Of a stretch of DNA of 64,000 nt, positions 3,869 to 56,598 are shown in pieces. Below the pieces are notes generated by a model. It saw nothing but the letters and a program-made list of their open reading frames with translations. It made no database searches and had not been told where the DNA came from. The position numbers were made by a program, and so were the translations under genes. Source of the stretch: Hypomesus transpacificus (Eukaryota; Chordata; Actinopteri; Osmeriformes; Osmeridae); assembly GCF_021917145.1 (NCBI RefSeq), contig NC_061074.1:10070860-10134859 (forward strand), given 5' to 3'. Position 1 is the stretch's first letter, and every line of letters begins with the position of its first letter.

Positions 3869-4719
3869 TCACCACCAAGATCCAGTCCCCAGGTGAGCGT
3901 GCAGCCAGTCTACGTAATTAGCCACCCTGGTGTAGACCCCATACACTCTCTGACTCCCGCACTCCTCTGGGCCCCCCCAGGACACCAGTCCATGGGCCAC
4001 CCAGCGTCCTCCCTCAGGGTCCTCCATCACAAAGGCCCCTCCACTGTCCCCCAAGCAGGTGTCATGGCCTCCTTCGTAGAAACCGGCACAGAACATGTTG
4101 TCGGTGATGTTGTAGTTGAGAGACCGCGAGGCGTAGCTCGACTCGCACTCCTCCTGAGCCACCACCGGCAGCTTCACGTACTGCAAAACGTCTGCCACCA
4201 GGCCCGTGTCCGAGGCATTAGGGTTGGAGATGCCCCAGCCTGCCACCAGCCCCAGGGTGTTGAGGGGCGGGGCGTGGTGTCCCTTATCCTGTGGAGGGGG
4301 AAGGCAGACGGGACGGACAAGCTGGCTGAACGGGACCACGTGGCTCAGCTTGACCAGGGCGATGTCGTTGTCGTAGTTACGGGGGTTGAAGTTGGGGTGG
4401 AGGACGATCCGCTCCACGGAGCGGTTTACGGCCTGGTCTTTGGCACTTGCGTTGTGGAGGCCGAGGTAGACGCGAATGTGTGCAGGCGCCACGGGCACCA
4501 CGCTGGCGTCACGGCGCTGAGAACGCAGCACGTGGGCGGCAGTGAGGACCCAAGACTCAGAGAGAAGTGCACCGCTGCCAAACCAGCTATCCTCCGGCAC
4601 ACGAGACACATCATCTATAGTCAACAGAACCTGCCAGGGGAAGAGGCCTGACACTGCATTGCGCCCGCCAACGATGCGTTTCATCTGGGCAGGGAAGGGC
4701 TGTGATGGCTCCCCGCACG
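3869..4719 (-). CDS. masp1: masp1 exon 11: MASP-3 serine protease domain
   Basis: One uninterrupted exon carries the activation peptide and the whole chymotrypsin-like domain. It opens with CGEPSQPFPAQMKR, then the activation bond R|IVGG. The catalytic triad is His in LTAAHVL, Asp in YDNDIALV and Ser in CLGDSGGA. VAGWGISNPNAS, DNMFCAGFYEGG and WGGPEECGSQRVYGVYT closely match the mammalian MASP-3 exon as I remember it. An intronless AGY-serine protease exon is characteristic of MASP-2/MASP-3, whereas MASP-1 uses six exons with a TCN serine codon. The active-site serine codon here is in a GAC AGT GGG context (AGY type). The antisense open frame over the same bases is a shadow. Confidence 0.95.
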
Positions 4720-7700
4720 CTGGAAAGACATGTTTAGATATTACTTATATTATCACAGCAATCAATATTTTTGATCCCTTATGGACTACTTTTGAACATG
4801 CCAAACGTCGTCAAAACATATCCTACGATTCCTTTAGGGATTTGTGCCTTAAAGGGGAAGTTCCCCAAAAAATCTAAAATATATTTGTATCCATTTATAT
4901 ATATAGTTGTCAAGTTTCAGATATTGGCTTCTCTCGAACATAATGGAGGGAGAGGGCACTCTGTTTGTGGTGTTCAAAGTACTAAAGAAAATACCTTTGG
5001 AAAACTCAACCTTACCAGAAATCACAACTTGGTTCTTCTAGATAATCCACACTTTGTTGTGAGCAGTTTCATTTAGGAACTATATTCATGGGGTTTAGTA
5101 GAGCCATCTCATGATTGTGGTGTGGGAGAACTGTCTTTTCATGCCTTTTCCACCTTCATTCTTAAGTATCACATGAGACTATAAGGGTGTATGAAAGTGC
5201 ATATCTCACATCTCACCAGGTATACAGGTAGGGAGTTTGGTTCCAAGTTCTACGTTGATCCAATCTCCCCTTTCCCCACAGGTATAAGTGCCTGCAGAGT
5301 GTATGGTACAGTTTTACATACACATAGAACAGCACTGCAGTAGAGTGTGTGCGCTAGAGACCGGTCGACCCACTGTTAGTCTTGGGGTGAATCTGCAACA
5401 TGGAGGCCCTGCAGCTGTACTGAATCTTAGACCCATAATGAGTGCCACTGTCTGGGCTCTCGAAGGTCACGTCAGCCATGGCAACCTTCTCTGGAGCTCC
5501 ACAGTCCACTACTGAGGAGGAGGAGGAAACACAGTTATGACGGACCGAGTTCTTCGTCTTAAAAGGTGCTCTGTGATCACAGATATGAAACAATGTGTAG
5601 AAAATTCGATTTGTGAACTGTCTAAAATAGAGAGAATTGCAGGCAGCAGATCAGACACTATCCTTTTTGAAAAGGTCCACATGCAACAGATAAAAGCTGT
5701 TCCCCTAAGAACAGGTTATGCCAGATTGACTGATTGAACACATTACAATGATACAAATGGGTTGACTTGGAGAGCAAATTTATGAATTGCTGGAGAGTGA
5801 TGAACCACTCATTTTAGTACTGTACATCATCATGTAGGCACAATCCTATACAGATCCAGAATGGTTAGAGATTCCCAACATATGTCTATCTTGGATATTA
5901 ATGTTTGTTATTTTGACATGTCTCTGTTAGTAACACAAACACAAACAAACTCCATTTAATAGATTCCAGGGCCCGAGTTTATTGCAAAGAGAAATATTTG
6001 AACATATCAAAAATACACAAAGTCTCAGATTAGGAGTAAAGTTGAATTGACGGCATATAATAGAATTATATATGACTTCTCTTCTAAACACCAATCTTAC
6101 CTACTATACTGTTAACAACTGCTGCCTGACAGGGAACTCTGATGTTGTGGCATTCTCATAGGGGTCTAGAGCAGTGTCTGACTGGTTAGAACTCAGAGCA
6201 GAAATCAGAAGATTCTCTGAGATTTATTTTCTGGAGGGCAGCGGAACAGGGTATGAGGCACGAGAAGAAAGAGAGGAAAAATGAAAAGACAGTATAGTAA
6301 AATACACAAAACACAATTCATAAGGTTAGTGCTACAACTTCAAAAAATTGATCCTGACCATGATATCAGTCATATTAAATTGGTATGTTCTGTTTTGTTA
6401 TTTCTTACTTTCGCACTGTGGAAGACTGCTAGTCCAGTTGCCATCTTTCTGACATTCTATCTGGTAGTGACTCAGCTCCTCTCCATCCTTTTAGACAGAA
6501 AAAGAAGGAGAGAAATATGTGTTTATATTGTAGCTGATATTCACAGGATTCCTGTGATTTCATCCACAAATGAGGAGGAACCAGTATTGCGGGAAGGAGG
6601 TGTGCCGCAGCACGCAGCAGCAGTACACGTTCCTGTGGCCACGTGAGGAACTGTTCCTCGTCATAAATAGCTTGATCCACTGTTAGCGGCCACAAGAGGG
6701 CAGACAAGATCTTATTAAGAAACAAGCCTTCTTTTTATGAGTGAGTTCTAAATATTACCGACGCTTCCGTCAGAATGAGTTATTTTTTCAAAACGAAAGC
6801 TTTTAGTTAGCGTTTTAGTTAGCTTCCGTTACCTAGCAACCTAGCATAATACTCGTAGCAATGCTACTACCTGCTAGTGTTACTTGTTAGCCTCCTAATT
6901 GTAAATTTTGAAGCCATACTATAGCGTTTGTCATATAGTTTTTGTCTATAGGAAAAAAGTAGGTTGGAATGTTCAGAATCACACGTGTGACGGTACTCTG
7001 TGGGGCCCCTTTCGAACGATCACATATATGTGACGCTACTAATTAACAGGTTAAATTGATCTCAGGCAAAACCGTTGTCCTCATGGCATACATTCTCTCT
7101 ACACAGGCCAGCCTTACCTTAAACAGACTGTAACCAGGGTCACACGTCACCAGGATATGATCTCTGAAAGAGTATTGGACCTGGGTTGGGTTCAGCTGGC
7201 CGTGGAGAGGTGTAGGAGGGGCTGGACACTGTTGGCTGGCTGAAATACAGGATGGGTCACAAATGACTAAGGAGAAACATACACACAAAAAATGTATGAA
7301 TGTAAAGTAAATGCTAATGTCTCATCATAAAAAATGTTGGGTAATAATTGATTTGGGCTGCATTTTAAAGGTTCATTCATCCTCCGCCTCACCGACAGAG
7401 GTGTATGTCATCCTCCAGCCAATGTTCTCCCCAGAGTTGTCACTGTGGAAATACACCTCCACCTTGTTGCTCTCTGTCTGGATCCTGCCTGGTGACTGGC
7501 CACCACAGAAAGGTCCAAACTCCTTCTGTCCATCCTGGATCTGAGGGTCACAAGTCATGTCCATCACCATCACCATTAACATCACATTTAGTCATTTGGC
7601 AGACGCTCTTATCCAGAGCGACTTACAGTGAGTACAGGGACATTCCCCCCGAGGCAAGTAGGGTGAAGTGCCTTGCCCAAGGACACAACATCATGTGGCG

Positions 7701-10700
7701 CGGCGGGGAATCGATCCGGCAACCTTCTGATTACTAGCCCGACCCCCTCACCGCTCAGCCATCTGACTCCCTATTAACACCCCCCCCATTAACATCACCA
7801 TCTTGTGTGTGTAAGCTATTCAAGTCAGATGCACTGCCCAAACCATAATGCAATTTGTGTTTGGGGATTATCATGTATGGCTTCAACTTGCATTAAGCAT
7901 CCATTTCAGGAAAGATAAACTGTAGTAATCGTACTTTCAGACAGGGATGTGAGAGATCTGTCTCACCCATAGATAGTGTTTAGTGCAATTTGTTGTGGGC
8001 ATGACGGAGATGCCAGTGTGGCCAAAGGAAAGTCCACAGCGCCCTCCAGTTCCCAGGTACTGGGTCAGAGGGAATGTTACTTATGCCTAATCCACTGTCT
8101 ACCTTGCTGTGACCTTTCATAGCATAGTCTGGATTGACCTCTGGTTTACCCAGATTACTTGCATGTTTTTGTAATAGTTTAGCTCTAATGCATACAAGCT
8201 GAATGAACAAAACAACTCTGGCAATCTCTAAGCTTCAGCTTCGTTTGTGCTATGTATGGTCTTGGTTAGAAGGAGTGCACATGGCATTGTAGCAAGGACA
8301 GGTGACATCCAAGTAACGCTCATCGTGATGTAGTCATAGGTACAAGTAACCCTCACCTTGACGTAGTCATAGGGAAAAGTAACCCTCACCTTGACGTAGT
8401 CATAGGGAAAAGTAACCCTTACCTTGACGTAGTCATAGGGACAAGTAACCCTTACCTTGACGTAGTCATAGGGACAAGTAACCCTCACCTTGATGTAGTC
8501 ATAGGGACAAGTAACGTCAGGGTGATCCTCAACGTCAAAGGTTTTGTCAAACTCCAGTACAAGCAGGAATCCTTCCTCCAGCTGGATGCGGTAGAGGCAG
8601 TCCGAGCTCTTGGGGTAGGGGTTAGGGAAGTCAGAGCTGGCCAGCACTCCTGACCGCTCAGTGAACACGTTGTCACTACACTGGACTGAAACACATCACA
8701 GGGAGCTTCTTTAGATCATCTACAGAAGAATATCATAAATGTTACATGCGCTCAAAATATTATCTAGATGCACCGTGGCGTGGATTCTACAAGGAATTAA
8801 TGAGAAGGATTATTTGATGTTCATATACTCTTGTTTACACTAGGCAGAGTAGTGATCGCAGAGTTTGAGAAATAAATATCAATAGCTCTCTATCACCTTT
8901 AAGAATGAGAATGTTATAGCCAAATTGAGTGGTAGCAGAGGAAGCTAATTAAAATTTCTCAGAGCATTAGCAAGCTTTCCCCTGAGCCTTTATCCCTTAA
9001 TGGACTACTGTGGGAACAAAATTATTTTAAAACATTATGTATGTAAAAGGAAGTAGCTATGGATTGAGTTAATTCCACACACACAAAAATGTTTGAATGA
9101 AAGGTTTCTGGCGATCTAAAATTGATCAAAAAATAAAGCAAAAAGTGTGTAAAATGTACCTCGACAGGTCCTGTTGTCTGAATGCAGCAGGTAACCGTAG
9201 CGACAGGAACAGTAGTAACCTGCCACAAAATTGTGGCAGAAATGGTCACAGACCAAGTCCTCATCGTTCCTGTCTCTGCACTCATCAACGTCTGTGTGGT
9301 GGGCATGCGACAATGAGTTATGAGGAGATGAGGAAGGGAGAGAGAAAGTGTCAGTCACCAGGAATCTTCTTAAAGCCAAGCGCACTTATTTAGTCTAATT
9401 CTTTACCTTAAGCAAAACACAATAACGTGGTTACTGTAGTTTTCAGTTTTTTTTTGTAAACTTAGTTATAGTTTTCAAGGTTATTTTGAGTAAAATGCTA
9501 AACAATATAAAATACGTAGTATTACTGGTCATAGAATACAGCACAGAGGGAGCATATCTATGAGACGCAGCTTTACGTGATTCAAGTCCGTTTTTTTCCT
9601 TGTCAGTCTTACAGAACGAACAGAAGCGTAGGAACACAGATATTAGCACACATTTATTAGACTAAACACTGAAACATTCATATTTTGTGTCTTGTTTTAG
9701 GTTTGTAATCAAATACGATGGATGTATTTGATATCTGGACCCTCACCTACGGCACTGTAATGGGCCTGGAAACCAGAAAAGTGCTCCTCATCGGAGAAGT
9801 CCGACCTGAAACAGACACTGAGAGAGTTCTTGGGTGAGGTGATGACTCGCTCCCCTGGAACAAGCTCAGTGTCTGTGTTCTCTCGGCCACAGAACACAGC
9901 TAGCTCCTCCCTTTCCGCCTCCACCTGAATACACAAACACAAACACGTTTTTAAAAAGCACACACGTACCGTGTGCACACACGTACCGACAAGGCAACTT
10001 AGTCCTGAAGAAGGAAGCTCAGAGATACGAATTTGCATGCCTGTGAATCAGCTAAAGGGAACTAATTGTGAACTACATGATTGATTCATTCCACCTTCCT
10101 CCTCTACACCACAACCCATGAGAGACCCTGGTTAATGTTGTTTACATTATAGACAAGGGCAGTCGCCTTATCTGGTGCTCTGATAGCATGTTTACACTAG
10201 GACTGTCACTGAACGGACGATTACCCCCGACGAACACAGAACACAAAAAGCCAAAAGGTCTACAAGAAAAGGAGTCCTTGCAACATTGTTGCAAAAAATA
10301 TTTAGCTTCCGACAGTAAACTTGTTCATGAAGTTCACAAATGACTTAAACTTAAAAATACAAAATCAATCAATCAAGAGTGTTGTTGCTATAGTGCATTG
10401 CTGTAGGACTAACATATGAATGAGGAGGTGCAACGCTACGAGCTAACTCAAGTGGAATGAACGCTATCAACTCCTTGGACAGGACACTGTCTGTCCTTCA
10501 CACACACAACCATTTGTCAATCCAGTCTACAACCATTCGCACTTACGTTACTGTAATACAGATAATATTGAGAGAAGTATTGTTGTTTAAAAAGCTATAC
10601 AACAACACTATTTAGTACCCTTCTAGTAACAGATCAGACGTTTTTTTAAACATATGGTAACAAAACATCTGATCTGTGTTACCAAAGGGGTACTAAATAG

Positions 10701-11810
10701 TGGTGTTATATATGTAATTATACAGGCACAACAGACAAAGGGCAGGCAACGTCTGCTTCACTGCTGTCCTGTCCAAGACTGCGGGGATCCTGACCGATTT
10801 ATGGTCTTCAGAGATGGAAGGACCACAAAAGCCTGGCAAACCAAGATATACGACAACAGCAGCGCCCACTGTGCTTGCTTTTACTGTGCTTATTACTGGC
10901 ACAAACTATCTGTTCAGCTATTATCCTGTGGTGTTCAGGTCCATTCCCCTGCACACTGGGCAGAGAGAAGAAGCCTGGCTGGAAAGAGAAGAAGCCTGGC
11001 TGGAAAGAGAAGAAGCCTGGCTGGAAAAGATATCCAAGAGATACTACTTTAAAATAGACAAAACTAGACATCAGAACAGCTGATTTTTGCAGTCTGCTTT
11101 TCATAAAATACTTTCACATGGTATATATAAATATCCTATAAACAATGACGGCAAATGTGATAGAAAATAAATGTTTTCCTCCAAGAATGGGCTGACACCA
11201 TGCACTTTAGCACTTTTAAATAAAAATAATTGTCAATAGCCTAACTTGGCATTTTCATGCACCCCTGGATTTCGAATGCACACGTATAAACTTACCTTTA
11301 CACAGTCATATTCACAGAGATAGGACGGCTCCAAATCGAAATGAACAAAGTAAAGTCTAATTTGGAAACCTTCCGGGACGCTTATGTTCCAGCAGAGCTC
11401 TGACTCCTTGGGATATGGTTCTGGGAAGTTCGGTGACCGGATGATACCATACATGTTATTCAGTGGAACAACCAGTGCCCCGACGGACACCATGGACAGC
11501 AACTGAATAAGAAGTCTAGGAGGAGATAAAAGTGTACATGTAAACTTTCATAACGAGAAAATCAAATGGTAGACTGCCATTCCACACATCGTTTGAAAAA
11601 TGACAGGCTACAGCGTGCGGGCGTTAGCAAATAGTGACATTCATCATGCATATGAATAAGGTTAACGTTAATGCACATAAAGGCAATTGTAGAATTTTGG
11701 GGAGAACTACGCGACATATGCTGTTTAGGAACCAGTCATACGATATTTAAATTGAAGTCCATGCATATTCTCGAAAACGCTTACCTCATCACTAATGGAG
11801 TTGCATCCAT
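3869..11810 (-). CDS. masp1: MASP-3-type complement serine protease (masp1)
   Basis: Eleven coding exons, minus strand, in order: 11785-11810, 11296-11515, 9747-9924, 9160-9291, 8489-8685, 7393-7540, 7118-7239, 6409-6487, 5362-5511, 5217-5291, 3869-4719. Phases agree throughout, giving 2178 nt and 725 aa (human MASP-3 is 728). The order is signal peptide (exons 1-2, first residues MDATPLVM), CUB1 (exons 2-3, with LNNMYG and YLCEYDCVK), EGF (exon 4, DVDECRDRNDEDLVCDHFCH), CUB2 (exons 5-6), CCP1 (7-8), CCP2 (9-10) and protease (11). MASP-3 is a mannose-binding-lectin-associated plasma protease known in mammals to activate pro-factor D. CUB1, EGF and CUB2 mediate dimerisation and collectin/ficolin binding. 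Exon 8 is only 79 bp and was found by its CCP motif (QIECQKDGNW). Oddities are a 33-bp repeat over the exon 5 donor, a weak donor after exon 9 and no MASP-1 protease exons. Confidence 0.93.
6205..6230 (-). CDS. masp1: Candidate MAp44-like alternative terminal exon
   Basis: In the intron between CCP1 exon 8 and CCP2 exon 9, a pyrimidine-rich acceptor (CCGCTGCCCTCCAG) ends at 6231. Reading on in the phase left by exon 8 gives about eight residues (KNKSQRIF) and a stop. In mammals the MAp44/MAP-1 isoform of MASP1 ends with a short Lys/Asn-starting tail (17 residues in human) encoded at exactly this intron position. An AATAAA follows at 5978-5983, about 220 bp on. Sequence similarity is too short to be convincing. 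Position, phase and the nearby poly(A) signal are the evidence. Confidence 0.35.
7584..7771 (-). mobile_element. tRNA-derived SINE, copy 2
   Basis: Reverse-oriented copy of the family seen at 1415. It lies in masp1 intron 5 only about 45 bp from the exon 6 acceptor. Tail motif at the left end and tRNA-like head at the right end. Confidence 0.85.
8330..8520 (-). repeat. masp1: 33-bp minisatellite over the masp1 exon 5 splice donor
   Basis: Five full 33-bp units plus partial ends. Each unit (minus strand) encodes 11 residues, TCPYDYVKVRV, and contains a complete exon end plus donor (CAAG|GTRAGG). The GT dinucleotides start at 8488, 8455, 8422, 8389 and 8356. The first is the position expected from other MASP genes. 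The second and third carry the stronger GTAAGG. The repeat stays in frame with the CUB2 exon without a stop. Confidence 0.95.
10601..10708. repeat. Palindromic MITE-like hairpin
   Basis: Left arm about 10601-10640 and right arm about 10667-10707 are inverted copies. TTTAGTACCC on the left matches GGGTACTAAA on the right, with GTAACAGATCAGA/TCTGATCTGTGTTAC inside. It lies in masp1 intron 2. No coding potential; probably a short non-autonomous DNA element. Confidence 0.7.
10963..11027. repeat. 21-bp triplicate repeat
   Basis: Three perfect 21-bp units beginning AGAGAAGAAGCCTGG, in masp1 intron 2. It is open in several frames on both strands, which explains the repetitive pseudo-peptides there. 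Confidence 0.85.
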
Positions 11811-17509: not shown

Positions 17510-18562
17510 TTAACATGAAGTAAAGGTTTTCCAGAAGAAATTCTTGCATCCCGCTTTGCGTTCACGAGGAGCCAACTGTGGACCAGCAGCGCGCTCCAAC
17601 TCAAGACGCACATCCTCTTGCTCGGCGCCACGAGACAGGTCTTCAGAATCCATCGCTTCATTTTCCGCTTGGACGAGCTCCGACAGAAGTTCTGCAAGTG
17701 TGTACCGAGCAAGTTCCTGGTGATAAAATAAATACAAGTTATTCCTCTGTTTTTGGAAACTACCTCAATTATTTTCTAGGCTACGGCATTGCAACATCGA
17801 TGCAGATAATCGTCACGTAAATGCAGATAATTGCTGCATACACGTGTCACTTTATAATTGTTTTTATATTGATTTATCTTCTAGTATAGGCTACTTGATC
17901 ATGTGGCAATGTTACATACTAATAGCAATTTAAATGTAATATAGTAAGTACGCAAAGTACATGTTTTGAGTCGATCCTGTTACATGCAGGTACTTTCTAC
18001 TTAACAGTTTTATTAACAAATGTCCACTTCATATCAGGTCTTAAGCAGCATAAAATGCCACCGCCTTCGTCATACCCCGGTAATTATAGAACATCATGGT
18101 CATCAAATCAAATTCCGCATCTATGTACACCAAGAAAGGTAACACTTCAACCCTTAGTTGTAGGGAAAACTAGGCCGTCATAATCGTAAAAGTACATTTA
18201 CGACATCTGAAGCCATGTCCCTGAGAAGAAAAGTACATTTACGACATCTGAAGCCATGTCCCTGAGAAGAAAAGTACATTTACGACATCTGAAGCCATGT
18301 CCCTGAGAAGAAAAGTACATTTACGACATCTGAAGCCATGTCCCTGAGAAGAAAAGTACATTTACGACATCTGAAGCCATGTCCCTGAGAAGAAAAGATT
18401 GTTAAAGCTCCCAGAGCTCTGTACCTGTTTGCCTGCAGGTGCCAGGAGTGATCGCTGGAGCAACTGGCGAAGTTTGGCATCAGATGGCGCGGCGGATACA
18501 CTGCTCATGACCAGGGCGACGGAGACAAGCCCCAGGACGCACGGGATGCGTGAGGAGAGCAT
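17510..18562 (-). CDS. sst1: Preprosomatostatin-1 (somatostatin-14)
   Basis: Two exons: 18425-18562 (46 codons) and 17510-17716 (68 codons plus stop). The intron sits in phase 0 after AGKQ, the site used in human SST. The 114-aa precursor starts [18 protein letters not shown], a clear signal peptide ending near SAAPSD. The prohormone has the conserved [17 protein letters not shown] and DVRLELER segments, then RERK and the perfect 14-residue hormone [14 protein letters not shown] with its Cys3-Cys14 ring. Monobasic processing at LER would release a 26-residue extended form rather than mammalian SS-28. It is a secreted inhibitory hormone of hypothalamus and endocrine pancreas acting on SSTR G-protein-coupled receptors. 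The promoter carries a CRE and a TTTAAAAG box. The intron holds a 41-bp minisatellite. Confidence 0.98.
18188..18392. repeat. 41-bp x5 minisatellite in the sst1 intron
   Basis: Five near-identical 41-bp units (start AAAAGTACATTTACGACATC) occupy the intron from about 33 nt after the sst1 splice donor. Perfect array homogeneity suggests recent expansion and probable length polymorphism. Confidence 0.95.
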
Positions 18563-32443: not shown

Positions 32444-33921
32444 CTACTGCTTCATACAGACCTGACAACGGCTGACAATGCTTCCTGGGCAATCCCCCTT
32501 CACTGTTTGAGGCGTAGGTTTACTGTACAGAGGAAGGGTGGAGAACACACTTGCGTTCAGTTACACTTCAGTAAAAGGAATTAAAGATGCATAGGGTGCA
32601 ATATGATGTTTACCTGAACATGTTGTTAGGGTCCAGGGAAGCCAGCCAGTAGCTGTAAGAGTCAGTGTAATAGTTACAAGTCCCTCGTCCGTGGCACTCG
32701 ATGAAGGGAATTTTCCGGAACTCCTCCAGACAGGAGCCTGGGGAGGCCAAAGGCTGCCCTGAACCCTCTGCTCCAGCGCCCGTTTGCTGAACATACACGC
32801 AAACACACACACACACATACGTTTCAACATTTCAGAATGTGTGGTGTCTTGGTAGCGTTTATCGATCTTTCTCTTCATCCTTACCATGACAAATGAGTAG
32901 CCAGTCCACAAGGGGACCCAACTAAGCGGACAAGAGGGGACCTGTACGGTTTGACTGTGGACAGCAATCACGTTTGCTTTGGTCTCACACACAGCACACC
33001 TAAGGCAGGACAGGAAACACAACAGTTAGAGATGAACTGATATGAACATTTTCGTCCGATATGGCCGGCGATATATCGTGCATCCTTAACAACAATTTAT
33101 GACCACAAAAATATTGTCACAACTACCACAAAATGGTTGTACATGCCTTGAATGCCCCTTGGTTGGATATATATATATATATATATATAATCAACACAAA
33201 CTATATTATTATGTATTTGCATTAAGGATTTCTTTATCAACATAACTTTTTTCATTTACACCTACATCATGGGTATCTCTAGCATCTGTGAAATAGCAGT
33301 TAAACTGTTGACCAGGGTTAAGTTCACCTGCTGACATATTTTTCGAGAGAGTCTCCGGATATCAGGGCCATGTCGCTGGGCATGGCCTCAGCTGTGGACA
33401 GCCAGTAGGAGTAGTCGTTGCGCGAGGCGTAGCGACAGGTGCTGTCGGTGTTGCAGAAGAGGAAGGGCATGGTGGAGAAGCGAGGTAAGCAGCTGCCCAG
33501 GGTACCTATAGAGGATGAGCAGCAGAACGAGGACACCATGATGGTTATAATGATTTGTTGTGATATAACTCACATAACTATGATGTTATGTGCGCATGTG
33601 TTAAAGAAATAGAGACCGTACCATATAACAAATGATGTTGTGTGTTAGAGAAAGAGAGACCGTACCATATAATGATGATGTTGTGTGTTAGAGAAAGAGA
33701 GACCGTACCAAGGTCTTGACCGTGTCCTCTGTTGTTGCCGTTAATGAAGAGGAGAGAGTATCCGGAGTAGATCAGGCTGCTTCCTCTTGGGCACTGGGGA
33801 ACGGTCCTGCCCTGGCTGTGTCTGCTGAACAGGAACCCGTCCTCTCTGGGGCCAGGGTAGTAGGGGCCCGGGGTCCCTCTGGGGCCCTTAGCTCCTGAAG
33901 ACCCTGGCTCACCTTGTATAC
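32444..33921 (-). CDS. col4a3: col4a3 exons 48-52: NC1 domain
   Basis: Exons 33709-33921, 33328-33505, 32885-32999, 32614-32786 and 32444-32522. NC1 starts at [10 protein letters not shown] and has the two homologous halves with their cysteines ([79 protein letters not shown]). NC1 directs chain selection and end-to-end hexamer assembly. The residues of the inter-protomer sulfilimine bond appear kept: Met in EAMPSDM and Lys in MFSKPTP. The last exon, only 26 codons, reads [17 protein letters not shown] where family members have KAGEL/KAGDL, introducing an extra Cys and shortening the tail (Gln end). Confidence 0.93.
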
Positions 33922-39600: not shown

Positions 39601-42600
39601 CTTGAATGGATGAACGTGATTGTTGTCTGACCTGTAACCCCTGGTGCCCCATCTGTTCCTCTGAAGCCCTTTAGGCCGGTAGCCCCTCTTGGGCCTGGAG
39701 GACCATCAAAGCCGGGTGGTCCAAACATGCCCAAAGGCCCAGGCATCCCCTCCCCAGGCAGGCCTTGATCCCCTTGCAGCCCCTTAAAGCCCCTGGGTCC
39801 TGTTGGTGGGACAGATAGGCAGGGGGCCAACAGATAGCTGATGATTGATTATCTTCTCAACTTCACCTTACACTGATTTTGGACCATGATTTGGACCATT
39901 ACTGCTCTGCACACTGTAGTGTTACCATAGAGCAGGGGGTGTCTAACTCCGGTCCTCGAAGGCCCCTGTCCTGCATGTTTTAGATGTTTCCCTGCTCCAA
40001 CACACCTGATTCAATTAAATGGGTTGTTATAACGACCATTCATTAGAATCAGGTGAGCTGGATCAGGGAAACATCTAAAACATGCAGGACACCGGAGTTG
40101 GACACCCCTGCCACAGAGTGTTGAAGAAATAAAAAAAAACATGTTTTGTTGACATAAATACACAGTTCAGTATCTTCAGACCAAGAGGGTTTTGTTTATA
40201 TAGCTGCAACACAGTGTGCCTAAACTCTGGGGTAAAGAATACTGTACTGTAGTTGTCTCTCCAGGGGGGGTGTATCCGTACATGTGGTTTGTACCTGTGA
40301 AGCCGATGACTCCTCTGATGCCTACAGGTCCCTGCGATCCCGGGGCTCCCGGGTTACACCCCCCAGACTCACCAGACAAACCTGGCAACCCAACAAGTCC
40401 CGTATTGCCTGCAGAGCAACAAAAACATTCTTAGAATCATTTTTCCGTTTTGTTAGGGTTAGGGTTAATGCTTTTTTTATTTTAAACATTTGATCGAAAT
40501 CATTTTTTTATATTTTTTTAACCTTTTGAAACTTTTAGTTTAAAAACTTTTGAGGGGAAATCATTTTCATTTTTTCACCAACTTTTTGTCAACTTTTCAA
40601 AACATTTGTTTCAAATATTGTTTCAAACCTTTTGAAACTTTTGTTCACGTTTTTTTGGGGTTGACCAGTTTTCCTGGGAAATTTTTCTTCTTTTACTTGA
40701 GGATTTAGGTTGGTGTAGGTGCAGTTCTATGGGCGTATGTGAAGCCCTCTGTGACATTGATTGCACAAAGGAAAATTTGATTTGAATATATTCCTGTGTG
40801 GATAAACGAACCTCTGTCCCCCTGTTGTCCATTTGTTCCAGGTATACCTGGAGGACCACCCAGCCCAGGCAGGCCAGAATCTCCCGTTGCCCCCAGAGCC
40901 CCATCCTCTCCTGGGCTGCCTTGCCGACCGGGAGGCCCTAGGAGGCCTGTGCGGAAATCACCCTGAAAAACAACATGATGGCACCCAATGGAAACACAGA
41001 TAACCAGTATAGTGCACAAACACACACTAACACGTGTGCACACACACACACACACACACCTTGGGACCTGGCATCCCAGGTGCTCCTGAAGGGCCAGGCC
41101 GTCCCATGATCCCAAAGCCAGGGAAACCAGGAGCGCCTGGCTGGCCCTTGTCACCTGCCACATGGATGGACATGTCGATAAGCACCAGATAAACAGGAAT
41201 GAGAGTTTGCCTATTAGAGCATAGCTTACGGAAAATAACTATCTAACCTTTAAAGCCTGTTTCTCCAGGAGGGCCTTGCACAGACAGTCCTCTCTCCCCC
41301 TTCAACCCCATCTGGCCAGGGAAGCCAACATACCCAGTGATACCAGGATTGCCTACATTGCAAATGATAACAGCGCAGATCATAGGTAATGGTAAATGCA
41401 GTGTGTTTTCCCTTCTCTTGTTTGCGAGAGCCTCGACAGAAAGAAGATGCACTCACCTAGAGGTCCAGGGTTGCCTGCCAGCCCTTTTTCTCCCTTCCTT
41501 CCTGGGTCCCCTGGCGTTGTTATGGTTTCACTTTGTTCGCCCTTCTCTCCTGAGAGATGGGGAGGGGGGGGGGGGGGTGGGTTATGTCATGTAATAGACA
41601 ACTGGGTGACCTTCACAGATTTGATGAGTCGAGCCAAACCTACCTGGGTCTCCAATTCTCCCTCTCAGGCCTTGTATTCCAAGGTTACCCTTCTCTCCAG
41701 GGTCCCCTGGTAGCCCCAACCCAGGAGGCCCATGGACCCCTATCTGCCCTGTTCGTCCACGGGGGCCATCCTCCCCAGCGGTGCCCCGGTCCCCCTTGGC
41801 TCCTGGAGGTCCCTTTAGAAAACACACAGGTCTCTTTCTGCTGCACATACAACACAAAATGTGTAAAGTAATGATCATATGATAAGAGTTGAGTGAATAT
41901 GGCATTCATATTTGTACTCATAAAGAGAATAAGGAATGTGATTACAGGGTTTCCTTTCGGGCCTTGCGGGCCTTTGATGCCTGGATATCCAGGGATGCCT
42001 TCATCTCCATCTGAGCCAGGAAACCCTGGACTTCCAGGGGAGCCTGTCGGACCTGGACTCTCTGGCGAGCCGATGAAGCCTGGATTTCCCTTGGATCCAG
42101 TTGATCCATGCATACCCGGGGTTCCAAAGGGACCCTGTGTGAAAAGGACCAAGTGTTTCACCACGGCAACGTCAGTTAAATATGAGTCAAATTAAACAGG
42201 GAAATACAGGTCAATTAATAAAGGTTAACGTACCGGAGGACCAGGGGGGCCAGTGAGACCACTCGTGCCCTTGTACCCTTTCGTCCCCAGAGGGCCATTC
42301 TGACCTGGACACATAAATAAAGCTAAGTAACGTCCACAGTAGAGAAAAATGGGCAACATCTTTCCACACTGTGACAACCTAACCATGTTGACAATTTGAC
42401 CTCCCAGAGCCTCATACAGACTATGGGCTGAAGGCCAAAGAATCATGAGGATCCATTAGAGCTAGGTTACTGTCGTGTCCTGTCGAGAGTCAGATGGCTG
42501 AGCGGTGAGGGAGTCGGGCTAGTAATCAGAAGGTTGCCGTATTGAATCCCTGCCGTGCCAAATGACTTTGTGTCCTTGGGCAAGGCACTTCACCCTACTT

Positions 42601-51600: not shown

Positions 51601-54600
51601 CTTGACAGCATCTGGGGATGATGTTAAGACTATGTTCCTGTCTCGTGACCTAGCAAACAGTAGATCCACTGATTCATCTTCAGATACAGACCTGCACACA
51701 CCTGCAGGACGGAAGAGCCGATAAGTGGGTGCAGGGTGACCACATGGGTCATGAAAGAAAGGAGATTGACAGAATGTAGAACATGAAAAGATCGAGGGCA
51801 AACAAAAAGATAGAGAACTAAAGACATGTTTTTGCACCAAAACAATCCTGCTCCCAGGAGATGAAGAGGGTGGCACGTTGGTAAGTTAACCCAAGTGTAG
51901 GTTGCATCTTCTGCCATGATGACTGGAATTGGGCATTTCGAAGACCTCCCAGGGCCAGGTGGGTGCCCAGGAATTGGTTTATGGCTGGGCGGAGCTACTC
52001 TGTCAATAGTTTGTCGCTACCATTGGTGCTGAAACAAAGCTCTGACTGGTCTGGGGGCGAGAACCCGGTCTTTGTACTACTGGGAAGATGAGTCAAAGTA
52101 AGGAAAGGGGAGCTGATTGAAGATTAGAAAAAGGTATGATTGCTGAGCAGGTGGAGTTGAAATCATGGAAAACTGAGGGGAGATGCCTTGACAGCTAATC
52201 CAAAACTGAGCAAACTCAGTCAGAAGTTGTGTGCGGTCTTGGGACCACTAGGTTGAAGCAATCACCAAGTGGATGAAGTGGGGTTTCCTTTCCAAGTCCC
52301 CGGTCCACCGAGAGAAGGTTCCCTCTGCAGAGGAAGATCTTGAGTTCCTTTTTGCTTTTAATTTATCTTCAGAATAAACAAACACCTCGAATTTACTGAA
52401 ACCTTTTGGTCCGCGTCTTTCTAACACAGCCCACAGACATTCTGCTTTTGAACACAGTCAAAGTGGGTACAAGCGGGTATGTGGCCCTCTTAAGATCAAA
52501 AAGATTACAATCTTCTTTTCTCTGAGAATACCAGAGAACAGAACCTTTTTCAGACCTATGGCAGAACTTCAAAGCTGTAAATTCAGCACATTCCAAAACA
52601 AGAAGAAATGCAATATGTGAGAGTTCACATGTGGGCATCTAGTATGCAGGTGACTGCTGGCCTATTACGGTCAAACACTTCCTCCCCAACACCACCTTAG
52701 TTCTGAGGGGAAACTTCACAAGAGTGAATTTCTTCTTTCTCCTTCAGAAAAAAGGTTCCATCCATAACCATTATGCTTGTATGATTATTGCTTTATGGCA
52801 ATCCCTCTCCCCCAATTTTTCTTTAATAGATTCACATACAGTTACTACATCAAACAATGGTTCACTTCCAGAACCATTTGAACAATAAAATGTCAAGCCT
52901 TTTAGAACCCTGAGTGTGTCATCTCGTGTTCTCAACATTTCAGATGTCCTTTCTTCCCTCTTCCCTCTCACTTTGTCTCATCATTGCCTTACTCCCCCAC
53001 TGTTATTTGATTAAAAAGTATATGCCATTGGGCATTACTATATTCAATACAATATAATATATACTATACACTTCCAGAGCTATGTGTTCTGTTTACATTT
53101 ACACATTGTCTAGTTTTGAAACCAGCAATACAATGTGAGTCTGTATGAACAGAACATTTTTTAAACGCCACTCAGTCTCTGGTGCAAGCATGGGACCAGC
53201 ATGTCTGGGCATGTGCAAGACACAGTCCTCCTGGCAGCAACCGGAGACACCCCTGATGGTGTCTTCTGGACCAGGGGGCTTACAAGATAGTGTCCCTGCA
53301 ACCTCTGGATCAGGGACAATCCTGCTGGTGTCCCCCACAGCTTTAGAGAATAAGAAAGCTGGTCTACTCTGCCCTAGACCAAGTCCTGGGGTCCAAGCCA
53401 AGGGGGGGACTGGATCCCATGGTACCCCATCGGGGCACTTCCTGGCTAGGGGCTTGGCTGTGCTCTCTCATTCTCCATCGAGGAAATCACGCGGAAAACC
53501 AACAGCTGGGTATCCCTGGGGCGACGATGGGAGAAGCAGGCTTTAGCTGAATAGGGGGGACTCTGAAATAACAGTCCAAAATGACAAAGGCCTGAATGAG
53601 AAGGCTATAAAAACTGGTTCAGGGCCAGGGTTAGGGCCAGCGTTAGGGCCCGGGGTTAGGGCCCGGGGTTAGGGCCCGGGGTTAGGGCCAGCGTTAGGGC
53701 CCGGGGTTAGGGCCAGCGTTAGGGCCCGGGGTTAGGGCCAGCGTTAGGGCCCGGGGTTAGGGCCCGGGGTTAGGGCCAGGGCCAGAAAAAGGAAGAGGGA
53801 CAGAGGCGAGTTGATTAAGACCACATGCTCATACCAAATCAAGGTTTTGCTAAGGACCCAATTTGACTTGGCTATCATGTTAAAATGGTCACTGGCTTGT
53901 GTGACTTTTTGAAACAGACAATGACATGTCAGATAAATGTTTCTGTTCCTTATATGTCTTTGTCCATCTCACTTCCTTTGCGGGGGCGCATAGTTCCCTG
54001 GTCTACTACTCACTATAATTTCCTTTTTCACATTCCAAGAGTTTTCCTGCATTTCCTGAATTTCCTGAAAAATAGGTAATTTAACAAGCGTCATATTCTT
54101 TGTAGTACATCCTCCTCCACATTTGAAACAACCTTCGAAACGGAATGTTTTATGTTTTGTGGTTTTCCCACATTTTGAATTTGTGAAGGTCACAAAAATG
54201 TAGTGACGATTACTTTCTGTTGGGGAATGTTTGAAACAGGTTTGCTTACAGTGGATGGATTCATTGATTTTAGCCCATTCCAATTTACCCCAGGTTGTTC
54301 AAATTAGTTTGACAACACTTCTCGACCCCATTTTCAAATATAGACACAGAACCTTGACCGGGAAATTGTTTAATTTCACCTTTTTGTTCTTGTGCCACCC
54401 CAAAGTTTATTATTTTTGTTCTTGTGCCACCCCAAAGTTTATTATTTTTGTTCTTGTGCCACCCCAAAGTTTATTATTTTTGTTCTTGTGCCACCCCAAA
54501 GTTTATTATTTTTGTTCTTGTGCCACCCCAAAGTTTATTATTTTTGTTCTTGTGCCACCCCAAAGTTTATTATTTTTGTTCTTGTGCCACCCCAAAGTTT

Positions 54601-56598
54601 ATTATTTTTGTTCTTGTGCCACCCCAAAGTTTATTATTTTTGTTCTTGTGCCACCCCAAAGTTTATTATTTTTGTTCTTGTGCCACCCCAAAGTTTATTA
54701 TTTTTGTTCTTGTGCCACCCCAAAGTTTATTATTTTTGTTCTTGTGCCACCCCAAAGTTTATTATTTTTGTTCTTGTGCCACCCCAAAGTTTATTATTTT
54801 TGTTCTTGTGCCACCCCAAAGTTTATTATTTTTGTTCTTGTGCCACCCCAAAGTTTATTAGACCTTGTACTTGTGCTTGGTGTTCTTAATTTCTTTCCAA
54901 GCTTCATTTTGTTTGTGCACTGAAACAGATTATCTTGCAGTATTTCCATGCATTTCACACCCTCCATTCTGCCTTTATTTTGAACAAGATGCCCAGTCCT
55001 TGCAGATGAGAAGGACCATCCCAGCAAGATGTTGTCATCACTTTATTTCACTGTAAGGCTGGCATGTCATGTTAGGTTTGCTTAACACATAGCGCTCTGA
55101 CATTTGGCCAAAAACCTTTATCTTGGTTTCACCTGACCACAAAACCTTTTCCCATAATGCACCTAGGAAGCTTCACTCTCATGATTTCTACTAGACTCTA
55201 TACACGCTTTCTGATGGTTCTTTTTGAGTAACTGCTTCATTCTTTCCATCCTCCAATCCAGGCCCGTGCTATACAGAGCTCTTGAAATGGTTGAGTGGTG
55301 CACTTATAACCAATCTGAATCGGTTAAATTATACTGGCAAATATTGCCAGCATGTGCACTTGCACAGTATATCTAAAGTGTTATTCTCTGTGTGGTCTTC
55401 ACTACTGTTAAGGCAAGTCACTGTGTGTGTGACTCCCTGGTGAAATAAAGGAATAATGACATAAATCCCTTAAATACAGTAGGTGTAATTGCACCAGTGG
55501 CCCTCTTCTTAGTAGAGCAGGGCATGCTGTGTGAACACAGCACACTCTCGTTATCATGACATCAACAGTGACAAGACTGAGCCTGTGCCTTACAGATGTC
55601 TAGTCCTGATAACAGTCCTGTTAAACAAATACAGACAACAGACATGGTTCTCACAGCAAACTTGCAGTCTCTCTCTCTCTTTGTGTCTCTCTCTTTCTCT
55701 CTCTCTTTTTCTCCTTCTCTGTCTCTCTTTGTATCACCCTCTTTCCTTCTCTCTGCACATTGTATTACTGTAATAAGGATGTATTTCAAATGCAATTCAT
55801 TTGTTGTTAAAACGGCTACTTAATATTTGAGCCTGCTCCAGTATAGATGGCTATTGGTTTGTCCCCACTTTGTGTTAACAGGCCTACTGGCTACTGCACT
55901 GTTGCATGTGTATTGTTTCAATCAAATGTGAGTAGAGTCAATTCTGGTCTCCTTGTCACCTGGTTGTGCTTTAAGTTTACTGTAAAGAGGATGATGATGA
56001 AGATCATGAGAAGGGGGAATTTCAAGAGATTACTAAAAAACACACAATTTCTGTTTACACCACGTCAAATCCTTAACTTCACCTCGTGGATTTAAGTTTC
56101 TGTTCTGAAACCCACAAAAAGAATCCGGTAGCTAAAGCAATAAATAACAGCGCCCCCTCTGACACAATCGACAAAACAGAGGCTGATTGAATTCCATCAC
56201 AACTTTCAGAACTCCATCACAACTGTCACAACTGTCATTAAACACATAATAATTAATAGACGTATTCGTGAAAATACATCAAGCGGTAAAAACACAGTTT
56301 CAAACTCTGTATCATTAAGAACTGTAAAAATCTTTTTTACGCCACTACCCTAAAAGGCAGCCCATAGGTTGTGACAATTTGTGACAACAAATGCAGGCTA
56401 CAATTTTACAAACTTAAACATGCAGAGTGTTGTGTAACATCTAGAGTATTCACACATGTCGGTGATGCTCAACGTTTTCCTTGGAGCATATTTCATACTC
56501 ACATCCTCTGTCACCCCAGGTGGGATACTGGCCCCGAGCAGCAAGCATAGAGGGAAAACACACTGGAGCACGACCGGCACACAGTGGAAGCCCTTCAT
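32444..56598 (-). CDS. col4a3: Collagen type IV alpha-3 chain, complete
   Basis: 52 phase-consistent exons, 5001 nt, 1666 aa (human COL4A3: 52 exons, 1670 aa). Exons 1-24: 56503-56598, 50472-50528, 48852-48941, 48689-48733, 48277-48321, 48062-48124, 47882-47935, 47547-47573, 47380-47454, 47199-47261, 47036-47071, 46902-46949, 45462-45536, 45332-45376, 44692-44754, 44486-44530, 44301-44354, 44149-44190, 43964-44045, 43600-43635, 43071-43235, 42889-42975, 42705-42800, 42234-42304. Exons 25-52 are given in the next entries. Order: signal peptide, Cys-rich 7S start, interrupted Gly-X-Y domain, NC1. The chain trimerises with alpha4 and alpha5 in glomerular and other basement membranes. Assignment to alpha3 rests on NC1 ([35 protein letters not shown]) and on the head-to-head col4a4. 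Confidence 0.95.
33610..33710. repeat. 43-44-bp tandem repeat at the col4a3 exon 48 donor
   Basis: About 2.5 units. Each contains the donor-like GGTACGGTC on the minus strand (GT starts at 33708, 33665 and 33621). The repeat begins at the true donor of exon 48. Confidence 0.85.
33709..42134 (-). CDS. col4a3: col4a3 exons 25-48: second half of the collagenous domain
   Basis: Exons 25-48: 41946-42134, 41644-41812, 41457-41549, 41248-41352, 41060-41154, 40812-40962, 40295-40408, 39632-39799, 39194-39283, 38733-38867, 38399-38497, 37722-37811, 37339-37478, 36862-36988, 36442-36522, 36228-36329, 35881-35928, 35562-35747, 35032-35162, 34817-34889, 34469-34540, 34222-34347, 34041-34139, 33709-33921. 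Early exons (3-18) are whole Gly-X-Y codons of 27-90 bp starting with an intact Gly codon; most later ones split the first Gly codon, as in other COL4 genes. Short interruptions break the Gly-X-Y pattern, as type IV collagen needs for flexibility. Cysteines occur in some of them (exon 23 CRICTE, exon 31 GGCNPG, exon 33 GVCGTP, exon 39 GGCHGQ, exon 42 NGVCFEG). Confidence 0.93.
36536..36690. repeat. (GA)n microsatellite
   Basis: About 90 bp of pure GA/CT repeat plus a GACAGACAGGGA-type extension. It lies in col4a3 intron 38, just upstream of the exon 39 acceptor, where its CT strand lengthens the polypyrimidine tract. Confidence 0.95.
37641..37707. mobile_element. Short hAT-type MITE next to a splice donor
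   Basis: 67 bp with inverted ends (TAGGGATGCAC / GTGCATCCCTA) and an imperfect 8-bp target duplication, GATTACAT at 37633-37640 and GATTAGAT at 37708-37715. It sits 14 nt from the end of col4a3 exon 36 (its duplicated target starts 6 nt from the exon). A partial relative lies at about 33057-33090. Confidence 0.75.
38083..38178. repeat. Partial palindromic MITE, copy A
   Basis: One end of the element seen in full at 39933 and 49127 (GTTGGAGCAGGGAAACATCT, then CAGGACAGGGGG). It is directly followed by SINE copy 6. Confidence 0.7.
38184..38376 (+). mobile_element. tRNA-derived SINE, copy 6
   Basis: Same family, in col4a3 intron 35. Its tail ends about 20 bp from the donor of exon 35 (38399). 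Confidence 0.85.
39400..39600. mobile_element. 201-bp hAT-type MITE with perfect TSD
   Basis: Inverted ends CAAGGCCGTA / TACGGCCTTG and a perfect 8-bp direct repeat CTTGAATG at 39392-39399 and 39601-39608, in col4a3 intron 32. Confidence 0.9.
39933..40110. mobile_element. Palindromic MITE, copy B
   Basis: Long imperfect inverted repeat: CAGGGGGTGTCTAACTCCGG ... CCGGAGTTGGACACCCCTG, with GTTTCCCTGCTCCAACACAC inside mirrored on the other arm. In col4a3 intron 31. Confidence 0.75.
42486..42688 (+). mobile_element. tRNA-derived SINE, copy 7
   Basis: Same family with a tripled TGTAAA tail, ending about 15 bp from the donor end of col4a3 exon 23 (42705). Confidence 0.85.
43352..43540 (+). mobile_element. 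tRNA-derived SINE, copy 8
   Basis: Same family, in col4a3 intron 20. A-box TGGCTGAGCGGTT and B-box GGTTCGATTCC are both close to the tRNA consensus. Confidence 0.85.
44810..45235. other. GC-rich inserted segment, possible LTR fragment
   Basis: col4a3 intron 14 holds a GC-rich block with TTTAAAAG (about 44937) and, 250 bp on, AATAAATGCTC followed by CTTGACTGAACTGAA. A TATA-like box followed by a poly(A) signal is typical of LTRs, but I found no clear ends or target duplication. Confidence 0.25.
45540..46800. other. col4a3 intron 12 with a second copy of the dispersed repeat
   Basis: No coding sequence. From about 46114 to 46660 it carries the diverged copy of 13440-14180 that lacks the hAT insertion. 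It is preceded by a CAGGTGGTGGTGATGCACC motif and an A-rich tail (46085-46110) typical of a fish retroelement end. Confidence 0.5.
46806..46902. repeat. Tandem repeats at the col4a3 exon 12 donor
   Basis: Three copies of TACCTGTATACC spaced unevenly. On the minus strand each gives GGTATACAGGTA, the donor of exon 12 (GT at 46901). Confidence 0.7.
48942..50471. other. col4a3 intron 2
   Basis: Contains MITE copy C; otherwise AT-rich sequence without a supported feature. Confidence 0.5.
49127..49339. mobile_element. Palindromic MITE, copy C
   Basis: Full-length relative of copies A and B with inverted ends CAGTGGTTCCTAA / TTAAGAACCACTG, in col4a3 intron 2. Confidence 0.8.
51917..52428. mobile_element. 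Possible solo LTR of an old retroelement
   Basis: A block starting TGATGACTGG and ending TTTCTAACA contains a late AATAAA (52373) followed by a TTTTGGTCCGCGTCTTTC-type end, as in retroviral-type LTRs. No target duplication was found and no internal genes are present. Confidence 0.3.
53625..53785. repeat. TTAGGG-containing minisatellite
   Basis: Around ten units of 16-17 bp alternate GGTTAGGGCCCGG and CGTTAGGGCCAG forms. Each contains the vertebrate telomere hexamer TTAGGG, but separated by GC-rich spacers, so it is not a true telomeric array. Confidence 0.9.
54387..54862. repeat. 32-bp satellite array, about 15 units
   Basis: Near-identical 32-bp units (containing GTGCCACCCCAAAGTTTATT). The unit is not a multiple of three, so the long open frames through it are artefacts that cycle through all three frames. 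Confidence 0.97.
54880..55330 (-). mobile_element. Third decayed Tc1-like relic
   Basis: Contains pieces such as TTGGTTTCACCTGACCACAA and ACCTTTTCCCATAATGCACC, plus CTCTTGAAATGGTTGAGTGG, which resemble the antisense of a common fish Tc1-like transposase. No intact frame. Confidence 0.5.
56503..56598 (-). CDS. col4a3: col4a3 exon 1: signal peptide
   Basis: 32 codons from ATG to GAT before the donor GTGAGT. The hydrophobic core ([16 protein letters not shown]) ends near [10 protein letters not shown]. The phase-0 junction to exon 2 (50472-50528) continues [19 protein letters not shown], comparable to the human COL4A3 7S start, with Cys pairs and CDG.KG. I chose this ATG because the frame upstream has no other Met and the only other nearby ATG is out of frame. 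Confidence 0.85.

Follow-up and report, generated by a model that had tools for sequence, protein, structure and literature searches.

A 33-bp minisatellite carrying an exon end and its splice donor in the masp1 gene of the smelt Hypomesus transpacificus

In the smelt Hypomesus transpacificus, the junction between exon 5 and intron 5 of masp1 lies in a 33-bp minisatellite that carries five splice donors of equal predicted strength, all of which join exon 6 in open frame within an intact coding chain. Our favoured reading, to which we give a probability slightly above one half (about 0.52), is that the junction was multiplied by a recent minisatellite, that the ancestral donor (donor 1) remains the main one in use and that the other units are mostly spliced out. 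Positions (Table 1) are those of the window, i.e. the whole stretch of 64,000 nucleotides analysed (NCBI RefSeq assembly GCF_021917145.1, contig NC_061074.1, 10,070,860 to 10,134,859).

Genes of the MASP1/MASP-3 type are defined by the domain order CUB1-EGF-CUB2-CCP1-CCP2-serine protease and by a MASP-3 protease encoded in a single exon. The smelt gene conforms to this plan in its MASP-3 splice form, as judged from its exon chain, with the protease in a single 851-bp exon of the MASP-3 type, and from its 96% identity to MASP1 of Osmerus mordax. Isoform X1 of the latter (P0001) is the closest protein among the matches listed, with 691 of 721 aligned positions identical. Exon 5 lies between the acceptor tttcag/TCC and the donor AAG/gtgagg (slashes mark splice junctions), joins exon 6 in frame and matches CUB2 of human MASP-1/3 (3dem) with an E value of 8.3e-35. 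Pfam searches with P0001 and with the 765-residue smelt isoform (see below) returned CUB, Sushi (one stretch) and Trypsin as passing matches, EGF-type matches falling below the cut-offs. The intact coding chain, the 3dem match and the 96% identity to the Osmerus mordax protein all confirm the identification as masp1 that had been made in a first-pass annotation of this DNA. The adjoining gene is that of somatostatin-1, 99% identical to somatostatin-1 of Osmerus eperlanus (P0121).

Table 1. Positions in the window of the masp1 features and of the units of the 33-bp array.
Feature	Position	Strand	Description
masp1 coding region	3869..11810	-	11 exons encoding 721 aa (MASP-3 form), uninterrupted between ATG and stop; 691/721 vs P0001
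masp1 exon 5	8489..8685	-	197 bp, first half of CUB2, ends at donor 1
masp1 exon 6	7393..7540	-	second half of CUB2; common acceptor of the five donors, accctcag/ATC
Unit 1	8483..8515	-	27 bases of exon, 6 of intron; GT of donor 1 at 8488, YIK/, ancestral position
Unit 2	8450..8482	-	donor GT at 8455, AAG/GTAAGG
Unit 3	8417..8449	-	same sequence as unit 2; donor GT at 8422
Unit 4	8384..8416	-	TTT (Phe) in place of the TGT (Cys) of units 1-3; donor GT at 8389
Unit 5	8351..8383	-	same sequence as unit 4; donor GT at 8356
Unit 6	8318..8350	-	diverged terminal unit; donor lost, ACG/ATGAGC; U1 pairing -1.6 kcal/mol

Tandem Repeats Finder places the array at 8310-8515 (period 33, 6.2 copies, 94% matches), and six 33-bp units are found on the minus strand from 8515 to 8318. 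Five tandem units, each with an exon end and a donor, had been described previously; these five are present, but the array comprises a sixth unit, which is donorless. With its head-to-tail units, of a length within the usual range of about 10-60 bp, the array is a minisatellite in the one sequence examined. It exceeds chance expectation, the unit (with at most three mismatches) occurring five times in the window and in 0 of 100 shuffles. Units 1-5 all keep AAG/GTRAGG and vary at three columns, which become seven once unit 6 is included. Between unit 6 and unit 1 there are four differences, and between unit 6 and any one of units 2-5 there are six; units 1 and 6 have in common an ATC that is GTC in units 2-5. 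This shared ATC, together with the identity of unit 2 with unit 3 and of unit 4 with unit 5, suggests an early duplication that gave rise to units 1 and 6, followed by later amplification between them. The differences among the units are too few for a test of selection.

The overlap of an array with an exon end is not in itself remarkable, since the 25 arrays of period at least 10 cover 3.8% of the window and 0.76 overlaps with the 20 masp1 junctions are thus expected by chance. A general attraction of arrays to exon ends was also considered, using the 11 of 28 array intervals that lie within four gene spans (intervals outside gene spans were excluded, and the exon ends of the collagen and somatostatin genes are approximate), and was rejected, as proximity was not significant for either type of splice site. 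Near donors, five of these 11 arrays were found within 30 bp against 2.50 expected (P 0.075), three within 5 bp against 1.54 (P 0.19) and three within 2 bp against 1.44 (P 0.15); near acceptors, the corresponding figures were one against 2.42, 0 against 1.50 and 0 against 1.38.

Other arrays in the window deserve mention in their own right. At 33597-33710 (minus strand), some 2.6 copies of a 43-bp unit form an array that starts at a likely exon donor (GQDLG/GTACGG), in a gene recognised by eye that we take to be type IV collagen-like; this array, the second of the window at a likely donor, holds three GGTACGG motifs. A GT repeat seems to follow directly on a collagen-like exon at 41012-41060 (minus strand), whose donor would then sit in a dinucleotide array. 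A 41-bp array of 5.1 copies and 100% matches (18188-18397, minus strand) lies 29 bp past the donor of somatostatin-1 exon 1 and holds five acceptor-like TTTTCTTCTCAG motifs. Intron 2 of masp1 contains a 21-bp array of three units (10964-11027, minus strand) with an acceptor-like TTTCCAG in each, and 15 identical 32-bp units stand in tandem at 54381-54860, where three plus-strand frames are open.

The strength of the donors was estimated from the pairing energy with the 5′ end of U1 and from a frequency matrix. Pairing energies for donors 1-5 are -10.1, -10.0, -10.0, -10.1 and -10.1 kcal/mol, a perfect consensus giving -14.0, and all five score 7.2-7.3 bits in the matrix, in which none of the 529 other GTs of the masp1 coding span (used and array donors excluded) reaches 7 bits. 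Among the nine other used donors of the gene, only that of CUB1a surpasses the array donors in both scores. The array donors are thus predicted to be strong and equal, which agrees with the earlier view that they are usable (about -10 kcal/mol and at least 7.2 bits in the matrix); the accompanying claim that the second and third match the consensus better than the first is supported by neither score. Tandem alternative donors are recognised by at least two consensus-like donors that share one acceptor and by the use of more than one of them in RNA; the smelt sequence offers five consensus-like donors for the acceptor of exon 6. The predicted fold of the array RNA is unremarkable (z -1.46, with 14 of 200 shuffles equally or more stable), and in a predicted 500-nt context the five donors are mostly paired, to a similar degree (mean unpaired probability 0.14-0.21).

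When joined to exon 6, donors 1-5 give proteins of 721, 732, 743, 754 and 765 residues, in each of which the sole stop is the terminal one. The five joins are therefore open, and the in-frame ladder of 0, 11, 22, 33 or 44 added residues foreseen in the first-pass annotation is exactly what is found. A stop-free unit with a length that is a multiple of three would, by our own arithmetic, arise by chance in roughly one case in five; selection would leave a unit of this kind as well. CUB2 contains 4, 5, 6, 6 and 6 cysteines with donors 1-5, units 4 and 5 having Phe where units 1-3 have Cys, and the whole proteins contain 29, 30, 31, 31 and 31. The smelt donor-1 protein has 29 cysteines, against 28 in Osmerus mordax, as a result of an extra Cys80. 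This residue (EYDCVK; 11302-11304, minus strand, exon 2, CUB1) corresponds to Tyr in 105, Phe in 10, Ser in four and Ala in one of the 120 homologues listed. Cysteine parity was considered as an argument on donor use and set aside as weak, the whole protein being odd (29) with donor 1 and even (30) with donor 2.

A search for homologues gave 701 matches, and our counts were made on the 120 listed, some of which are isoforms of one species. The length of the junction was measured from the FD(V/I)EDHP-type segment to the FCG that follows the junction. In 118 of the 120 homologues listed (of 701), spacing is that of smelt donor 1, with no length change across the junction; among them is the closest relative, P0001, whose protein offers indirect evidence for donor 1. 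One exception, P0027, lacks the exon-6 side. The other, MASP1 of Coilia grayii (P0080), has six additional residues just after the junction that resemble a short local duplication (EAGQKGEAGQREL). When the repeated region was searched for in representatives of 90% clusters, no repeat-bearing protein was found (786 candidates, 0 at E ≤ 0.001). As the database holds one representative per cluster (P0001 stands for 10 members), isoforms with an insert could be hidden inside clusters. Within this limit the search had power, since in local phmmer runs with no word filter the isoforms with 1-4 extra units obtained E values of 2.8e-6 to 7.8e-31; the four single-copy proteins tried obtained 8 to 310.

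The position of the repeat within CUB2 bears on what the additional residues may do. The calcium ligands of rat MASP-1 CUB2 are Glu216, Asp226, Asp263 and Ser265 (PMC5300068). The Asp of the repeat, which is present in 120 of the 120 homologues listed, aligns (3dem) with position 226, provided that positions in the chain follow the mature numbering; under the same assumption, the equivalent of Glu216 is upstream of the unit and those of Asp263 and Ser265 are in exon 6. The calcium-binding loop previously assigned to the repeat is therefore there in part: the putative calcium Asp and its adjacent Tyr are repeated, but by this numbering the repeat would hold one of the four side-chain ligands. 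In a structure of P0001 predicted from 33 aligned homologues out of the 120 listed (mean pLDDT 72.5, pTM 0.46), the junction K251/I252 lies inside the strand 249-254 (block mean pLDDT 78 and 88). An extra unit is thus predicted to fall within a beta strand, three residues past the putative calcium Asp, and would probably break this strand unless another copy of the motif takes its place.

It is the conservation of the protein at this junction, seen in 118 of the 120 homologues listed, that leads us to favour donor 1. We propose that a 33-bp segment spanning the exon-5/intron-5 junction (27 bases of exon and 6 of intron) underwent a tandem duplication and later expanded to six units, and that intron 5 came in this way to begin with four additional donors, equal to the ancestral one that precedes them. 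Donor 1 would yield a working CUB2 in most transcripts, units 2-6 being removed with the intron, and donors 2-5 may be used at a low level, which would insert 11-44 residues in frame into a CUB2 strand. Such an array may persist because its unit is 11 codons long and stop-free, stray use of an extra donor triggering no nonsense decay.

The published cases considered here do not agree on which of several close donors wins. Where human genes have tandem splice sites, a single site is generally dominant, with minor ones lower by a factor of ten or more, and in coding regions most of the minor sites are found downstream of the major one (PMC8055015). The same source, in a statement mainly about acceptors, holds that upstream minor sites are used more than downstream ones of similar strength. 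Exon 1 of ER-alpha has a pair of comparable donors separated by 33 nt, and splicing takes place at the intron-proximal one, for a cause that the authors of that study state is not known (PMC6002489). The intron-proximal donor is also preferred in wild-type DOK7, where it is the stronger one, and suppression of the upstream site is weakened when the latter is given the stronger sequence of the downstream site (PMC5585400). Transposed to the smelt gene, the proximal preference in ER-alpha and DOK7 predicts use of donor 5 and 44 extra residues, against our favoured reading.

This intron-proximal rule is a possible but rather unlikely alternative. All five donors would bind U1 and donor 5 would be used, the main protein then being longer by 44 residues in CUB2; a single YDYVK copy would fill the place of the strand, the others being looped out. 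The equal predicted strength of the five donors is what such a rule calls for, the proximal use in ER-alpha occurs at exactly the 33-nt spacing, and this distance is close to the footprint reported for U1 (23 nt upstream, 12 nt downstream; PMC6002489). Donors 3-5 moreover give an even number of CUB2 cysteines (six), as does donor 1 (four). Against it stand the constant junction length in the 118 of 120 homologues listed, the predicted insertion within a strand beside the putative calcium Asp, the failure to find a repeat-bearing protein among the 786 candidates at E ≤ 0.001, and the easing of upstream suppression in DOK7 when the upstream site receives the stronger sequence of the downstream one (PMC5585400).

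A graded mixture, in which splicing is shared among several donors at similar levels and a variable repeat number results in a length series of the protease, was the idea of the first-pass annotation and seems to us unlikely. It would fit five equal, in-frame donors and the identity of units 2 and 3 and of units 4 and 5, which points to a recent change in copy number; it is disfavoured by the same negative search (786 candidates, E ≤ 0.001) and by the odd number of CUB2 cysteines (five) in the donor-2 product, the latter argument being weak, as the whole proteins have 30 with donor 2 and 29 with donor 1. More speculative still is the idea of a splice-donor VNTR, whose repeat number would set the number of competing donors, so that individuals would differ in their ladders of CUB2 lengths, with altered binding of collectins and ficolins; we regard it as doubtful.

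A shift of the intron boundary, or the gain of an intron by tandem duplication of AG/GT (Rogers model), in which the CAAG/GT units would act as donor and acceptor, is very improbable. The unit does contain AAG/GT, and related cases are described in the potato RdRp duplication over an intron-exon boundary (PMC4974935) and in 24-nt repeats of fission yeast (PMC3629103); however, no clear polypyrimidine tract or branch site was seen by eye in the units, and the exon chain requires no new intron. Intron gain would show as a new intron that relatives lack; the protein spacing at the junction is that of the relatives (118 of the 120 listed). An assembly or sequencing artefact is the least probable reading of all, for although arrays are error-prone and the identical pairs (units 2 and 3, units 4 and 5) could conceal an error of one unit more or fewer, the array is short, at about 200 bp, and three columns vary among units 1-5, or seven with unit 6.

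The smelt array resembles tandem alternative splice sites in its possible mode of operation, and intron gain by tandem duplication in its origin. With tandem alternative 5′ splice sites (TASS, GYNNGY) it shares clustered donors and a single acceptor; in contrast to the TASS catalogue, where donor shifts of 4 nt are the commonest, its donors are 33 nt apart, all shifts are in frame, and the five sites are near-identical because the junction itself is the minisatellite (PMC8055015). ER-alpha exon 1 has donors of comparable strength with the same 33-nt spacing, but two sites and, in the excerpt, no repeat described, where the smelt has five in a repeated context (PMC6002489). As in potato RdRp (PMC4974935) and fission yeast (PMC3629103), a segment bearing a splice site has been tandemly duplicated, and in potato RdRp the duplication likewise spans an intron-exon boundary; whereas a new intron was made in these two cases, an existing donor junction is multiplied in the smelt, with no new intron seen.

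Coding and intronic VNTR minisatellites, in which copy number varies between individuals, similarly consist of tandem units with identical neighbours. The smelt unit differs from these in straddling an exon-intron junction, and its copy number would alter both the number of donors and, possibly, the length of the protein. No described equivalent of a minisatellite that repeats an exon-donor junction was found in the open-licence literature searched.

The array thus offers a natural test of splicing choice, with five near-identical donors in near-identical context and one acceptor. Each donor leaves a distinct in-frame length, so the length of the product reads out the rule by which a donor is chosen. 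Should several of these donors prove to be in use, and copy number to vary, the masp1 minisatellite would represent an unusual way in which the length of an innate-immunity protease can change.
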